Below are positions 2,384 to 7,963 of a stretch of DNA of 7,963 nt, piece after piece. Position 1 is the stretch's first letter. Every line of letters starts with the position of its first letter. Source of the DNA: Desulfobacterales bacterium (GTDB lineage Bacteria > Desulfobacterota > Desulfobacteria > Desulfobacterales > JAUWMJ01); the NCBI GenBank assembly GCA_030613225.1, contig JAUWMJ010000121.1, positions 1-7,963 on the forward strand. The letters are read 5' to 3'. A program made the position numbers and the translations under genes. Below the pieces are notes generated by a model, which saw only the letters and a list, made by a program, of their open reading frames with translations, was not told where the DNA came from and made no database searches.

Positions 2384-2473
2384 ATGATAAAAATTTTAGC
2401 CATTAACAACCTAATTAGCATAATTATTCTACTCGTAGTAGAGATACTAGTCTACTGCGAGAACCCGGGTTGA
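2384..2473 (+). CDS. ilv operon leader peptide (29 aa, Ile/Leu/Val-rich)
   Basis: This short ORF runs from ATG 2384 to TGA 2471-2473. It encodes 29 residues, of which 8 are Ile, 5 Leu and 3 Val. The densest run is codons 10-19, reading LISIIILLVV (2411-2440); the tail is YCENPG. No ATG, GTG or TTG lies in frame between the upstream stop at 2354 and this ATG, so the start is fixed. The ribosome binding site is weak (AAGAGCAAGAAA-like). The peptide is probably not functional as a protein: its translation is the sensor. Its codons 6-10 form RNA arm 1 of the attenuator, and its stop codon lies inside arm 2, as expected for a ribosome-mediated attenuator of ilv genes (compare the ilvL and ivbL leaders of enterobacteria). 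Three of five Leu codons are CTA, which is scarce in the neighbouring ilvB. I recognise the class, not a named orthologue. Confidence 0.87.
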   Translation: MIKILAINNLISIIILLVVEILVYCENPG

Positions 2474-2503
2474 TAATGGCTTAATATATAATAAATAAAA
2501 AAT

Positions 2504-2544
2504 AAAAACCGTTATCAGCCCGATGCTGATAACGGTTTTTTTTT
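2504..2544 (+). terminator. Intrinsic terminator (attenuator hairpin 3:4)
   Basis: A perfect 16-bp stem (2504-2519 with 2525-2540) has a five-base loop. The stem's 3' end runs into nine consecutive T residues (2536-2544). The 5' arm begins with five A residues, so the structure is also a terminator-like hairpin on the other strand. It lies 31 bases after the leader stop and well before ilvB, which makes it a regulated terminator. It may also stop read-through from topA. Confidence 0.93.
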
Positions 2545-2789: not shown

Positions 2790-4475
2790 ATGAAACTGAC
2801 AGGCGCACAAATCATAATGCAAGTATTAAAAGAAGAAGGTGTTGACACGATCTTCGGTTTTCCCGGTGGTGCTGTTATAGATATCTATGATGAACTTGAA
2901 AGAACAGATATACGTCATATACTTGTCCGCCATGAGCAAGGCGCTGTTCATGCCGCAGATGGATATGCAAGGGCCAGTGGAAAAGTCGGCGTCTGTCTGG
3001 TTACTTCCGGTCCCGGTGCAACAAATACCGTTACCGGCATTGCATCCGCCTATATGGATTCCATCCCCCTGGTTATAATCACCGGGCAGGTTCCCACCCA
3101 TCTTATAGGAAATGACGCCTTTCAGGAAGTTGACATTGTGGGAATAACAAGGCCATGCACCAAGCACAACTATCTTGTCAGTAAAACCGAGAATCTTTCC
3201 AGGATTATCAAAGAAGCCTTTTACCTGGCCCGTTCCGGTCGCCCCGGTCCTGTTCTGGTTGATATCCCAAAAGATGTTGCAAACAGACGCATAAGTTATA
3301 AAGGGACAACAAAAGTAAAACTTAAGTCTTACAATCCTACCTACGATCCGAATATACACCAGTTAAAGAAAACAGTAAAACTTATTGAAAATGCCAAAAG
3401 ACCGCTTATTTTCGCCGGTGGTGGTGTTGTCCTTTCAAAGTCTTCCGGTGAACTTACTGAATTTGCGCGTAAAACACAAATTCCTGTAACGACCTCCCTG
3501 ATGGGTCTTGGCGCTTTCCCGGCCACCGACCCCCTGTGGCTCGGCATGATAGGAATGCATGGCACATACAGGGCGAACATGTGCACAGGAGATTGCGACC
3601 TTCTTATTGCTATAGGTGTCAGGTTTGATGACCGTGTTACAGGAAAGACGGACGCCTTTGCCGCCCAGGCTAAAATAGTACATATCGACATTGATCCTAC
3701 ATCCATACGTAAGAATATTCCGGTCTATATCCCCATTGTTGGTGACTGTAAAATCAGCCTTGATCACCTTAACCGTCTCATTGATAATGTCGATCTGGAT
3801 AATGTCAGTAAAAAAAGAGAAAAATGGCTAAATCAAATTGACCAGTGGAAGAGTACAAACCCCCTGGCCTATAACCAGAAAGATGTTATCAAACCGCAAT
3901 ATGTCATCGATAAACTTTACGAGCTTACACAAGGCAAAGCAATTATAACAACCGAGGTGGGACAGAATCAGATGTGGGCGGCCCAGTACTATCATTTTGA
4001 TCAACCCGGCCATTTTATCACTTCCGGTGGTCTGGGCTGCATGGGATTCGGTCTACCTGCGGCGATCGGGGCACAGGTAGCCTGCCCTGGCAAACTTGTC
4101 GTAGATATTGCAGGGGACGGGAGTATTCAAATGAATATACAGGAAATGGCAACCGCCATACAATATTCTCTCCCGGTTAAGGTTGTTATCTTAAATAACG
4201 GGTATCTCGGCATGGTGAGACAATGGCAGGAATTGTTTTATGAGAAGAGATATGCCTCCACATTAATGGAACATACCCCCGACTTTGTAAAACTGGCAGA
4301 GGCTTACGGTGCTCTTGGGTTAAGGGCAACTAAACCCGACGAAGTTGAATCAGTCCTTTCTAAAGGACTCTCTTCCACAAAGACAGTAATCATGGATTTC
4401 CTGGTTGAAAAAGAAGAAAATGTTTATCCAATGGTGCCCGCCGGTGCTCCCATAACAGAGATGCTGCTGGTTTAG
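2790..4475 (+). CDS. ilvB: Acetohydroxyacid synthase (acetolactate synthase), large catalytic subunit
   Basis: The catalytic subunit of AHAS condenses two pyruvates to 2-acetolactate (valine/leucine) or pyruvate with 2-oxobutyrate to 2-aceto-2-hydroxybutyrate (isoleucine), using thiamine diphosphate, Mg2+ and FAD in the cytoplasm. The 561 residues match the usual length. Visible features are the N-terminal TPP domain with FGFPGGAV and catalytic Glu49 in [15 protein letters not shown], the SGPGATN turn, and the AHAS-typical [24 protein letters not shown] stretch (near residues 98-120). A middle domain follows, then the C-terminal TPP/metal motif with GDG at 442-444 and NN at 469-470, and the [10 protein letters not shown] segment. 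The start ATG has AAAGGA seven bases upstream. It is the first structural gene after the attenuator and should depend on it. The gene to ilvN is unusually distant (276 bases). The FAD-binding and AHAS-specific motifs argue against other TPP enzymes such as pyruvate oxidase. Confidence 0.97.
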
Positions 4476-4751: not shown

Positions 4752-5240
4752 ATGACAGAAGAAAAACATATTTTTTCCATGCTGGTTGACAACCAGCCTG
4801 GAGTACTTTCAAGAGTAGTTGGATTGTTTAGCGGAAGAGGCTTTAATATTGAAAGCCTGTGTGTTGCTGAAACCATGGAACCTCTTGTATCGCGGATTAC
4901 TATTGTTACAAAGGCGAACAGCCCAGTTATTGAACAAATCGAAAAACAGCTTAACAAGCTTATTAACGTAATTAAAATTCGTGATCTTACAGGACCAAAA
5001 TCTGTCAAGCGGGAAATGGCCCTTATTTGTGTCCAGGCCAAAGCAGAGCACAGGGCTGAGATTTTAAGGATTGTAGATATTTTCAGATGCAATGTTGTTG
5101 ATATAGGTCTGAAACATTACATCATAGAGGTGACCGGTGATGAGGGTAAAATAAAGGCCATATTGAATCTTTTAAAACCCATGGGGATCAAGAAGATCGC
5201 AAGGACAGGGATTATGTCGCTTTTTCGCGAACCGAATTAG
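4752..5240 (+). CDS. ilvN: Acetohydroxyacid synthase, small regulatory subunit
   Basis: This regulatory subunit of AHAS activates the IlvB catalytic subunit and confers valine feedback inhibition in characterised members. At 162 residues it has the IlvH-like length (about 160), longer than the ~96-residue E. coli IlvN. An N-terminal ACT domain is visible from residue 6: FSMLVDNQPGVLSRVVGLF, then SGRGFNIESL, the typical glycine-containing loop and second helix of the effector site. A second half (from about residue 78, REMALICVQA) forms the C-terminal ACT-like domain. The start ATG follows GGAAG with about seven bases between. The bases around the start (AATGCTATGA) are nearly identical to those at ilvB, suggesting similar initiation. 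The gene lies between ilvB and ilvC, in the usual ilvBNC order. The symbol ilvH would serve equally. Confidence 0.95.
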   Translation: MTEEKHIFSMLVDNQPGVLSRVVGLFSGRGFNIESLCVAETMEPLVSRITIVTKANSPVIEQIEKQLNKLINVIKIRDLTGPKSVKREMALICVQAKAEHRAEILRIVDIFRCNVVDIGLKHYIIEVTGDEGKIKAILNLLKPMGIKKIARTGIMSLFREPN

Positions 5241-5459: not shown

Positions 5460-6509
5460 ATGACACAAATTAATTTTGCAGGTGTTTTGGAAGAAGTAAT
5501 TACATCTGATGAATTCTCTATTGAAAAAGCAAAACAGGTGCTCAAAGATGAAACTATTGCTGTACTCGGTTACGGTGTTCAGGGGCCGGGACAGGCTTTA
5601 AATATGAAAGATAACGGCGTCAATGTAATTGTCGGTCAAAGAGAAGGAGGCGATTCATGGGACAGGGCAGTAGCAGACGGATTTGTCCCGGGGAAAACTC
5701 TCTTTCCTCTTATGGAAGCAGCACAAAAAGGAACTGTTATTCAATTTCTCCTTTCAGACGCCGGCCAGGTTATGATGTGGCCTGAGATTAAAAAATGTCT
5801 GAACCAAGGCGATGCCCTTTACTTTTCCCATGGTTTTTCCATTGTATATAAAGACCAGACGAATATCATCCCGCCGGAAAATATTGATGTTATTCTTGTT
5901 GCACCAAAAGGTTCCGGACGAACGGTGCGCACAAATTTTTTGGACGGCAGTGGAATCAACTCCAGTTTCGCAGTGTACCAGGATTTTACCGGCAGGGCAA
6001 AAGAAAGAACTCTTTCACTGGGAATCGCCATCGGTTCCGGATATCTTTTTTCCACGACTTTTGAAAATGAAGTATACAGTGACCTTACCGGTGAGCGTGG
6101 CGTTTTGATGGGCTGCCTTGCAGGGATTATGGAAGCCCAGTACAATGTTTTACGAAAAAACGGCCACAGTCCCAGTGAGTCCTTTAATGAAACGGTTGAA
6201 GAACTTACCCAGAGTCTTATCAGGCTTGTAGCACAAAACGGAATGGACTGGATGTTTGGAAACTGCAGCACGACAGCACAGAGGGGCGCCCTGGATTGGG
6301 CTCCTAAATTCAGAGATGCTGTAGCTCCGGTTTTTGATACACTGTATGAAAATGTTGTGTCAGGAAAAGAAACCAGGCGAGTCCTTGAAGCAAACAGTGC
6401 ACCTGATTATCGGGAAAAGCTGCAAAAGGAACTGGATGAAATAAAGAATTCAGAAATGTGGCAAACCGGTGCTACAGTGCGTTCTTTAAGACCTGAAAAC
6501 AGAAAGTAA
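5460..6509 (+). CDS. ilvC: Ketol-acid reductoisomerase (NAD(P)H-dependent)
   Basis: The enzyme isomerises and reduces acetolactate or acetohydroxybutyrate to the dihydroxy acids in the Mg2+-dependent second shared step of valine and isoleucine synthesis. The 349-residue protein has a Rossmann domain with GYGVQG (37-42), a cofactor loop with Arg61, Asp65 and Ser66, and catalytic-site His124 in YFSHGF. The all-helical domain carries the metal ligands Asp208 and Glu212 (SDLTGE), Glu244 and Glu248 (NETVEE), and Ser270 in CSTTAQRG. The short form lacks the duplicated C-terminal domain of E. coli IlvC (491 residues). The wording around SDLTGERG, SESFNETVEELTQSL and NGMDWM resembles the plant/Bacteroidetes type more than the common bacterial class I type, by memory only. 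AAGGAG at 5448-5453 supports the start. It may be transcribed with ilvBN or from a promoter in the upstream repeat. Confidence 0.96.
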   Translation: MTQINFAGVLEEVITSDEFSIEKAKQVLKDETIAVLGYGVQGPGQALNMKDNGVNVIVGQREGGDSWDRAVADGFVPGKTLFPLMEAAQKGTVIQFLLSDAGQVMMWPEIKKCLNQGDALYFSHGFSIVYKDQTNIIPPENIDVILVAPKGSGRTVRTNFLDGSGINSSFAVYQDFTGRAKERTLSLGIAIGSGYLFSTTFENEVYSDLTGERGVLMGCLAGIMEAQYNVLRKNGHSPSESFNETVEELTQSLIRLVAQNGMDWMFGNCSTTAQRGALDWAPKFRDAVAPVFDTLYENVVSGKETRRVLEANSAPDYREKLQKELDEIKNSEMWQTGATVRSLRPENRK

Positions 6510-6511
6510 AG

Positions 6512-6560
6512 AGCTGATAGCTCATAGCTCATAGCTCATAGCTGATAGCTGATAGCTCAT
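6512..6560. repeat. Tandem array of seven 7-bp units (AGCTSAT)
   Basis: Seven contiguous heptamers follow the ilvC stop: AGCTGAT, three AGCTCAT, two AGCTGAT, AGCTCAT. Units vary only at the fifth base (G or C). The unit contains AGCT, so the array can pair with itself and with the opposite-orientation copies downstream. Confidence 0.92.
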
Positions 6561-6593
6561 AGTTAAAGGATTGAATCCTTCAGGCTATGAGCT
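6554..6593. repeat. Hairpin joining the heptamer array to inverted copies
   Basis: AGCTCATAG (6554-6562) is exactly complementary to CTATGAGCT (6585-6593). Between them AAGGATT (6566-6572) and AATCCTT (6574-6580) form an inner stem. Further inverted-orientation units, AGCTTTG, AGCTATG, AGCTAAT, lie at 6663-6683. Confidence 0.7.
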
Positions 6594-6746
6594 ACTTGTC
6601 ACGGCATCTTGTCGGGGCGAAGCTTGAAAAGCGTAGCCTGAAGCCGGAGGCGACGCCGGATCAGCTTTGAGCTATGAGCTAATAAATTACGAAGTAATTT
6701 AGTCGAAGCCGGAAGAAGGGCCTGCCCTGCGTAGCCGCAGGCGAAG

Positions 6747-6753: not shown

Positions 6754-6761
6754 AAAAAGTG

Positions 6762-7963
6762 ATGTCACCTATCCTGCTATATGATACCACGCTTAGAGAC
6801 GGAACCCAGGGTGAAAATATCAGTTTCACTGCTGAAGAGAAAATCAAGATTGCAAAGAGACTTGATGATGCAGGGATGCATTATATCGAAGGCGGCTGGC
6901 CTGGTTCCAACCCAAGGGATAAGAAATTTTTTAATCTTGCAAAAAATATGAAATTTAAAAATGCCCGTTTGGTTGCATTCGGTTCAACACGCAGGCCCGG
7001 CATTGATGTAAAAAAAGATCATAATATTGCAGCACTTCTTGAAAGCGGCACACCGGTTGTTACCATATTCGGAAAAAGCTGGGATCTCCATGTAATGCAG
7101 GTCATGAACAACACCCTTGAAGAAAACCTTGCAATGATACGTGATTCCGTTGAGTACCTGAAAACAAATAATAAAGAAGTCATTTACGACGCAGAACATT
7201 TTTTCGACGGGTTTAAGAAAAGCAAAGATTATGCAATGCAAACCCTGTTTTCCGCCATTGACTCAGGTGCGGATTTCATTGTGCTGTGTGATACAAATGG
7301 TGGCACCCTGCCCTTTGATATCGAATCTGTTATGAGCCATGTAAAAAATACTCTAAACGAAAAATACACAGGCAAAACTAATGCCCTGCCGGTTAAAATC
7401 GGAATCCATACCCATAACGACAGCGGACTGGCTGTTGCAAATTCCATAATTGCAATAAAGGCCGGCGCTGTTATGGTACAAGGTACAATCAATGGCTACG
7501 GAGAAAGATGCGGGAATGCCGACCTTACCTCAATCATTCCGATTCTCAGTTTAAAAATGAATCTGCCGAGCATTTCAATGGAAAATCTCGAAAAAGTAAG
7601 AAAACTCTCCAGGTTCGTCAGCGAAACCGCTAATATGATTCCGTTAAACAGCAGGCCATTTGTTGGAAAAAGTGCCTTTGCCCACAAAGGTGGTATCCAT
7701 GTGAGCGCTATCATGAAAGTGCCCAAAGCGTATGAACATATAGACCCTGAACTTGTCGGAAATATGAGACGGGTTCTTATCTCTGATCTTTCAGGCAGAA
7801 GTAATGTAGAATACAAGGCCAAGGAGCTCGGAATTAACCTTGGTGGTAATGGTCATGACAGTAATAAAATAGTATCTAAAATAAAGGATATGGAACAGGA
7901 AGGATACCAGTTTGATGTAGCAGACGGTTCATTTAAAATCCTTGTGGAAAAGTTCACTGAACA
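6762..7963 (+). CDS. cimA: (R)-citramalate synthase, 3'-truncated by window end
   Basis: The enzyme condenses pyruvate with acetyl-CoA to (R)-citramalate, opening a threonine-independent route to 2-oxobutyrate and isoleucine. The visible 400 codons cover the catalytic TIM barrel and the start of the C-terminal region; homologues run to roughly 500-540 residues, so the regulatory (LeuA-dimer type) domain is cut off. Residues seen are the DRE-TIM signature DTTLRDG with Arg12 and Asp13, then TQGENISFTAEEK and YIEGGWPGSNPRD, which distinguish this clade from ordinary 2-isopropylmalate synthase. The metal-site HTHND has His216 and His218, and GYGERCGNADL includes Asn252. HKGGIHVSA and the family stretch YEHIDPELVGN follow. 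The ATG is chosen by the ribosome binding site at 6747-6753; a GTG one codon earlier is the alternative. Position after ilvC fits an isoleucine role. A 2-isopropylmalate or homocitrate synthase is the less likely alternative. Confidence 0.93.
   Translation, partial: MSPILLYDTTLRDGTQGENISFTAEEKIKIAKRLDDAGMHYIEGGWPGSNPRDKKFFNLAKNMKFKNARLVAFGSTRRPGIDVKKDHNIAALLESGTPVVTIFGKSWDLHVMQVMNNTLEENLAMIRDSVEYLKTNNKEVIYDAEHFFDGFKKSKDYAMQTLFSAIDSGADFIVLCDTNGGTLPFDIESVMSHVKNTLNEKYTGKTNALPVKIGIHTHNDSGLAVANSIIAIKAGAVMVQGTINGYGERCGNADLTSIIPILSLKMNLPSISMENLEKVRKLSRFVSETANMIPLNSRPFVGKSAFAHKGGIHVSAIMKVPKAYEHIDPELVGNMRRVLISDLSGRSNVEYKAKELGINLGGNGHDSNKIVSKIKDMEQEGYQFDVADGSFKILVEKFTE

Follow-up and report, generated by a model that had tools for sequence, protein, structure and literature searches.

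The window, as we call the whole 7,963-nt stretch of DNA analysed here, very probably carries, between topA and ilvB, a classical ribosome-mediated transcription attenuator for an Ile/Val/Leu operon. Curated protein models placed topA (44-2314), ilvB, ilvN, ilvC and most of cimA in this order on the same strand, so that the identities given to ilvB, ilvN, ilvC and cimA in an earlier sequence-only reading hold; the nearest relatives of IlvB were found in Desulfobacterales and Deltaproteobacteria assemblies, in keeping with the deltaproteobacterium-like host which that reading had proposed. An Ile/Leu/Val leader suits an operon that serves all three amino acids. The features of the element and its operon are as follows.

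2321-2349, + strand: promoter-like site, TTGACA (2321-2326), 17 nt, TAAAGG (2344-2349), read from the sequence
2384-2473, + strand: leader ORF of 29 codons, 16 of them Ile/Leu/Val, with its TGA stop inside arm 2 (translation, coding selection)
2398-2411, + strand: arm 1, pairing with 2468-2481 (13/14 pairs)
2432-2461, + strand: internal hairpin P1a, 11 bp (2432-2442/2451-2461; fold, two-sided changes)
2466-2481, + strand: arm 2 (2466-2479 with arm 3, 2468-2481 with arm 1; pairing, covariation)
2504-2522, + strand: arm 3 (2509-2522 with arm 2, 2504-2519 with arm 4; pairing, covariation)
2525-2544, + strand: intrinsic terminator, comprising arm 4 (2525-2540) and a T run (2536-2544; pairing, covariation, scan)
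2790-4475, + strand: ilvB, acetolactate synthase large subunit, the first gene behind the element (TIGR00118, 857 bits)
4752-5240, + strand: ilvN, acetolactate synthase small subunit (TIGR00119)
5460-6509, + strand: ilvC, ketol-acid reductoisomerase (TIGR00465)
6759-7963, + strand: cimA, citramalate synthase, running off the window (TIGR00977, 566 bits)

The leader ORF lies between topA and ilvB and is translated as MIKILAINNLISIIILLVVEILVYCENPG followed by the stop. Its length and its 16 Ile/Leu/Val codons agree with the sequence-only reading, as does the position of the stop codon (2471-2473) within arm 2. All 16 of these codons lie within codons 2-23, and the ribosome-binding sequence 5' of the leader is weak by eye. 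In dinucleotide shuffles of the AT-rich stretch of the window, an ORF with at least 16 Ile/Leu/Val codons was obtained in 69 of 5000 cases; because the best ORF was chosen in every shuffle, the window ORF alone is less improbable. Chance is removed by the conservation of the leader, not by the window ORF alone. The analysis covered 146 elements before ilvB or ilvD (the window included), most of them hits of a model in which leader columns are present. In 138 of these, the leader contained 11 or more Ile/Leu/Val codons and had a share of such codons of 40% or more, compared to 38 of 2920 shuffles; the leader finder takes the ORF richest in these codons, and the shuffles were handled alike. The Ile/Leu/Val share reached at least 33% in 145 and at least 40% in 139 of the 146 leaders. 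The picked leaders start with ATG (128), TTG (14) or GTG (4). Some stop at the TGA in arm 2, whereas others use a different frame and stop 11 bases further on, ending in ...GLIMA; both endings place the terminating ribosome on arm 2.

Selection on the leader frame was assessed in 34 pairs of related leaders, with every leader used once. In the leader frame, 81 of 209 single-base codon changes were synonymous (39% vs 24% expected) and 30 exchanged Ile, Leu and Val for one another, whereas the two other frames gave 40 of 212 and 44 of 217 synonymous changes, slightly below expectation. At the level of codon changes, this comparison shows that the leader frame, and no other, is under coding selection. 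Pfam includes leader-peptide families; the window leader matched no family in Pfam or NCBIfam at E up to 10, and the leaders of three relatives gave only chance-level matches in these libraries (DUF5562, E 0.14; YoaJ, E 9.9).

The pairing scheme was next compared with that of the sequence-only reading, which had described arm 1 as complementary to arm 2, 14 contiguous pairs between arms 2 and 3, and a 16-bp terminator of arms 3 and 4 followed by T residues. Helix 2:3 (2466-2479/2509-2522) was recovered with all 14 contiguous pairs, two of them G-U, and the terminator 3:4 (2504-2519/2525-2540) with its 16 bp and nine T residues (2536-2544) after its G+C part. Helix 1:2 (2398-2411/2468-2481) lies where it had been placed, with 13 of 14 pairs; it is not fully complementary because of a single mismatch. 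Helices 2:3 and 3:4 compete for 11 bases of arm 3. Two features are additional to the earlier description, namely the hairpin P1a, which lies inside the leader ORF and is nested in helix 1:2, and the promoter-like TTGACA-N17-TA at 2321-2349. Folding of 2384-2550 gave -56.1 kcal/mol compared to a mean of -23.95 for shuffled sequences (z -8.83), with none of 200 shuffles as good.

Covariation was scored on an alignment of arms 2-3-4 with 84 distinct sequences and 500 shuffles. Helix 2:3 was formed in 91.0% of cells, and 8 of its 13 pairs had two-sided changes; for helix 3:4, the corresponding values were 96.1% and 8 of 14 pairs. Control versions with slid partners were paired in 19-55% of cells. 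No shuffle reached the number of cells with two-sided changes (55 for 2:3 and 93 for 3:4) or the covariation score of either helix. For further pair types, none of the 500 shuffles reached the value of 2:3, but 171 reached that of 3:4. Because the covarying helices 2:3 and 3:4 share arm 3, both alternatives are being kept. In an alignment of 16 sequences, the signal for 1:2, P1a and 3:4 together was clear except for further pair types (106 of 500 shuffles), and that for 2:3 with P1a was weaker, being reached by 4 to 122 of 500 shuffles depending on the measure. Arm 1 could be scored in 125 of the 146 sequences, 21 being left unscored; at least 11 of 13 pairs of helix 1:2 formed in 106 of the 125, compared to 25% of shuffles, and the helix stood at one offset in 87. 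The P1a region, scored in 142 of the 146 sequences, had z below -2 in 122 relatives; in the 16-sequence alignment, P1a had two-sided changes at 4 of 7 scored pairs and 73.2% of cells paired. An alignment of relatives, which the sequence-only reading had put forward as a check for leader codons and compensatory arm changes, thus revealed a conserved leader, covarying alternative helices and a conserved gene context.

The gene order in relatives is (topA)-element-(ilvD)-ilvB-ilvN-ilvC-cimA; ilvC was not found in place in some, and a leuA-like gene comes next in some. The spacers ilvB/ilvN and ilvN/ilvC are 276 and 219 nt in the window by coordinates and similar (270 and 291 nt) in locus L003, and the scan listed no coding-strand terminator-like site in these two spacers of the window. 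This context bears on the simplest alternative, in which the hairpin does no more than terminate topA transcription and chance accounts for the short ORF and the arms. Although topA does lie upstream in the window and, in 15 of 83 relatives, is the closest upstream ORF of appreciable size, that ORF is not topA in the other 68, while the downstream genes are constant. A promoter-like site also recurs between topA and the leader: TTGAC-N(17-19)-TA was present in the 110 nt upstream of 114 of 122 ilvB/ilvD elements, these being the ones of the 146 that were long enough upstream, compared to 45 of 2440 shuffles. In the window itself, the second hexamer of this site is poor, and a sigma-70 scan did not include 2321-2349 among its sites. 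Considering also the selection on the leader and on the alternative helices, we regard a topA terminator as very improbable.

To place the attenuator among genomes, an IlvB search was used, which yielded 80 loci mostly labelled Desulfobacterales, Desulfobacteraceae or Deltaproteobacteria. A covariance model, R1, was built from 16 sequences, namely the window and 15 of these ilvB loci. R1 matched the window and 33 of the 80 loci (15 of the 33 being in the model) on the coding strand, with E-values no higher than 1.7e-8; the other 47 loci, some of them short upstream, had no match at this level. Among the distant loci L053-L080, L062 alone was matched, and L060 only weakly (E 0.025). In whole genomes, which were scanned at order and phylum level with stricter filters and with rough E-values for R1 and for R2 (below), R1 matched 254 of the 291 genomes sampled from the order of one relative, the other 37 having no match at the counted level. 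It also matched 45 of 395 genomes drawn from the same relative's phylum; not all of these 45 contain attenuators, because two of the weaker hits have aromatic leaders and another (L157) is probably false. Desulfosarcina alkanivorans, an isolate of Desulfobacterales, carries the element. As R1 includes leader columns, its hits lean to Ile/Leu/Val leaders. A scan of the 600 bases before ilvB for ORFs and terminators caught only a part of the family, because the element often lies about 1.8 kb upstream, before ilvD.

Since R1 knows nothing of the genes behind its hits, these genes provide an independent check. Repeated sequences, first five and then seven more, were dropped from the hit sets; L158, which did not reach the threshold, was left out, and for L157 the position from the genome search was used. 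The 179 distinct hits fetched, for which one IlvD, one CimA and one LeuA protein were checked against curated models, comprised 97 before ilvD, 49 before ilvB, 22 before cimA and 4 before leuA-like genes, together with 2 that had ilvC as best match and 5 with none of these. All of the best 30 phylum hits, and 15 of the 19 weaker ones that could be placed, stood before ilvD, ilvB, cimA or leuA-like genes. A second model, R2, made of arms 2-3-4 alone, matched 70 of the 395 phylum genomes at E 0.01, not all of which contain attenuators because eight of its 20 further hits were without a sensible leader; these eight were set aside as plain terminators or chance. Nine of the 20 further hits lie before cimA-like genes, called by eye and not by profile, and have Ile-bearing leaders, and three have aromatic leaders.

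Taken together, the element combines a leader rich in codons of its pathway, a mutually exclusive antiterminator and terminator, an intrinsic terminator with a U tract before the genes, an anti-antiterminator (1:2) that overlaps the leader and, in the modelled footprint, a terminating ribosome that covers arm 2. Control of ilvBNC-cimA by ribosome stalling, as suggested in the sequence-only reading, is supported by the conserved leader, the covarying alternative helices and the gene context. We infer leader translation, stalling, termination and pausing, together with a response to all three amino acids that is read from the codons. Transcription would start slightly 5' of 2384, and a ribosome would begin the leader. 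With ample charged Ile-, Leu- and Val-tRNAs, the ribosome would reach the stop codon and cover arm 2, arms 3 and 4 would form the terminator, and RNA polymerase would halt near 2540-2544. When any one of Ile, Leu or Val is scarce, the ribosome would stall within codons 2-23 and leave arm 2 free to pair with arm 3, so that the terminator would come too late and ilvB-ilvN-ilvC-cimA would be transcribed. Helix 1:2 with the nested P1a would serve as the anti-antiterminator and may also be a pause structure keeping polymerase and ribosome in step; this double role as pause and anti-antiterminator structure is probable, as proposed for ilvBNC of Corynebacterium glutamicum (PMC11857589).

Modelling of the ribosome position agrees with this scheme in nascent RNA, in which helix 2:3 stays formed with a ribosome at codons 2-23, whereas a footprint at codons 27-30 abolishes 2:3 and lets the terminator form. 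In full-length RNA at equilibrium, the terminator is favoured once the ribosome stands at codon 7 or beyond, and the probability of 2:3 is 0.02-0.43 with the ribosome at codons 7-23; in ribosome-free nascent RNA, 2:3 is preferred over 1:2. Because equilibrium folding favours the terminator from codon 7 on and 2:3 over 1:2, the switch must be kinetic, depending on which helix forms first as the polymerase moves.

That the terminator wins at equilibrium for most stall positions would also suit a real leader and structure without codon-specific stalling, acting through the nascent peptide, through Rho, or as a structure indifferent to codons as reported for ilvB of Streptomyces coelicolor, where, in the available part of PMC1262725, substitution of the candidate codons upstream of ilvB left regulation unaffected. 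However, the many interchanges of Ile, Leu and Val would be less easily tolerated by peptide sensing, the arm 2/3/4 alternatives here covary, include a strong intrinsic terminator and are complete, which the actinobacterial cases are not, and the codon content of the leader tracks the downstream gene. We therefore consider such a mechanism improbable and retain ribosome-mediated attenuation.

The tracking of the downstream gene follows from the leader codons of the hit sets. Ile-dominated leaders made up 13 of the 31 before cimA, compared to 2 of the 49 at ilvB and none of the 97 at ilvD; the cimA set consists of 22 machine-picked leaders (8 Ile-dominated) and nine picked by hand (5 Ile-dominated), and other leaders read Ile, then Leu. 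Elements of the phylum with a similar arm core occur before cimA, whose product opens the citramalate route to Ile. Leaders with mainly Ile codons, a similar layout and a cimA-like gene downstream were seen at L142, L144, L148, L155, L156, L271, L274, L275 and L276, the cimA call being by eye for L271, L274, L275 and L276. At L152, an Ile-rich leader of the cimA type precedes an acyl-CoA-dehydrogenase-like gene, which is not a biosynthesis gene.

A possible, though somewhat doubtful, explanation is that one ancestral scaffold spread through Desulfobacterota and was re-coded in place to suit the downstream gene, the aromatic (Phe/Tyr/Trp) versions being cousins or look-alikes. In such a history, the leader would read Ile, Leu and Val before ilvD or ilvB, Ile alone or Ile then Leu before cimA, and would be rich in Leu before leuA, and the core of arms 2, 3 and 4 (TGATAATGG / CCGTTATCA / TGATAACGG) would be largely kept. 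Leader codons that vary with the downstream gene offer a natural series; if the re-coding is true, nature would here have supplied a codon-swap series for attenuation beyond the gamma-proteobacteria.

A ligand-binding riboswitch or T-box-like element, with the ORF incidental, would account for the position before branched-chain amino acid genes and for the terminator/antiterminator alternatives. We give this explanation hardly any credence: the conserved columns of the 16-sequence alignment are those of the leader ORF and the arms, and no Rfam family matched the window or any of 13 fetched related loci at the gathering score. A search of 2340-2570 at E up to 10 returned 67 Rfam matches, none at the gathering score. 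Thr_leader and Trp_leader represent the same kind of regulation as the attenuation proposed here, and both were sub-threshold in the window (RF00506, 23.6 vs 55 bits; RF00513, 15.8 vs 41 bits). According to an excerpt of PMC3766115, Rfam did not yet include Ile/Val attenuators in 2013.

For E. coli, attenuation of branched-chain genes is well documented (PMC6123439, in part), and such attenuators are reported in other groups in the part of PMC1262725 available. The enterobacterial ilvGMEDA and ilvBN leaders, given in an excerpt of PMC6123439 as 32 codons each with 15 and 11 Ile/Leu/Val codons, respectively, likewise form short leaders rich in these codons with terminator/antiterminator alternatives before branched-chain genes. 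Different from them, the element described here belongs to another lineage, has no sequence relation that was found (its leader being without Pfam/NCBIfam match), contains a covarying hairpin inside the leader, and heads genes from ilvD or ilvB through cimA as one element. In Corynebacterium glutamicum, from another phylum, ilvBNC comprises the same three genes and likewise has three competing hairpins (anti-antiterminator, antiterminator and terminator), the apex of the first being proposed to pause polymerase; the contested trinucleotide is short in the excerpt of PMC11857589 that covers this operon, whereas the overlap of 2:3 and 3:4 in arm 3 amounts to 11 bases here. Actinobacterial ilvB genes are likewise preceded by terminators and by short ORFs in which Ile, Val and Leu codons form runs, and their mode of regulation is called unclear in the same part of PMC1262725; here, the alternative helices are complete and covarying.

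Among the matches listed in the open full texts and libraries searched, we found no description of a branched-chain RNA element in this phylum. Together with the lack of an Rfam match at the gathering score, this accords with the suggestion of the sequence-only reading that such leaders may be undescribed in this lineage. The mechanism is old, but within the resources searched both the family and its reach appear to be new. A survey of proteobacterial attenuators was reportedly made by Vitreschak and colleagues in 2004. The available part of PMC3766115, which covered Desulfovibrionales, suggests a possible origin of amino acid attenuators in gamma-proteobacteria, followed by very few transfers, and the element speaks against that suggestion. 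With matches in 254 of 291 genomes, it is plausibly the main control of the branched-chain pathway in the order.

Five loci with aromatic leaders (L141, L147, L280, L281 and L282) were considered as homologues of the window element and not accepted, their arm letters being different and their scores weak. At L282, a leader with a Phe/Tyr run (...SGYFFFYFFKYFICPP...) and a terminator lie just 5' of an ORF (410-1204) that matches 2-amino-3,7-dideoxy-D-threo-hept-6-ulosonate synthase (TIGR01949, above cut-off), which makes it a candidate aromatic amino acid attenuator. L141 has a Phe/Tyr-rich leader and terminator with chorismate synthase (above cut-off) about 500 nt downstream, and L147 has a similar pair upstream of a shikimate-kinase-like gene (below curated cut-offs). 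At L281, a Trp-rich leader (...LTFWGWWWNRR...) with a terminator is followed about 250 nt on by a gene that resembles the one for the indolepyruvate ferredoxin oxidoreductase alpha subunit (partial, below cut-off). The leader of L280 contains six consecutive Tyr codons, and the only profile match of its downstream gene is a metallo-hydrolase family, far below cut-off.

In the window itself, the spacer from the terminator to ilvB is about 245 nt, compared to less than 70 nt in most relatives, and within its 2560-2780 part lie an inverted repeat (2574-2591/2623-2640) and, at 2701-2717, a weak terminator-like site. The ilvC-cimA spacer contains, at 6512-6562, tandem copies of a AGCTGATAGCTCAT-like unit with a 14-nt step, which have an inverted partner at 6660-6681.
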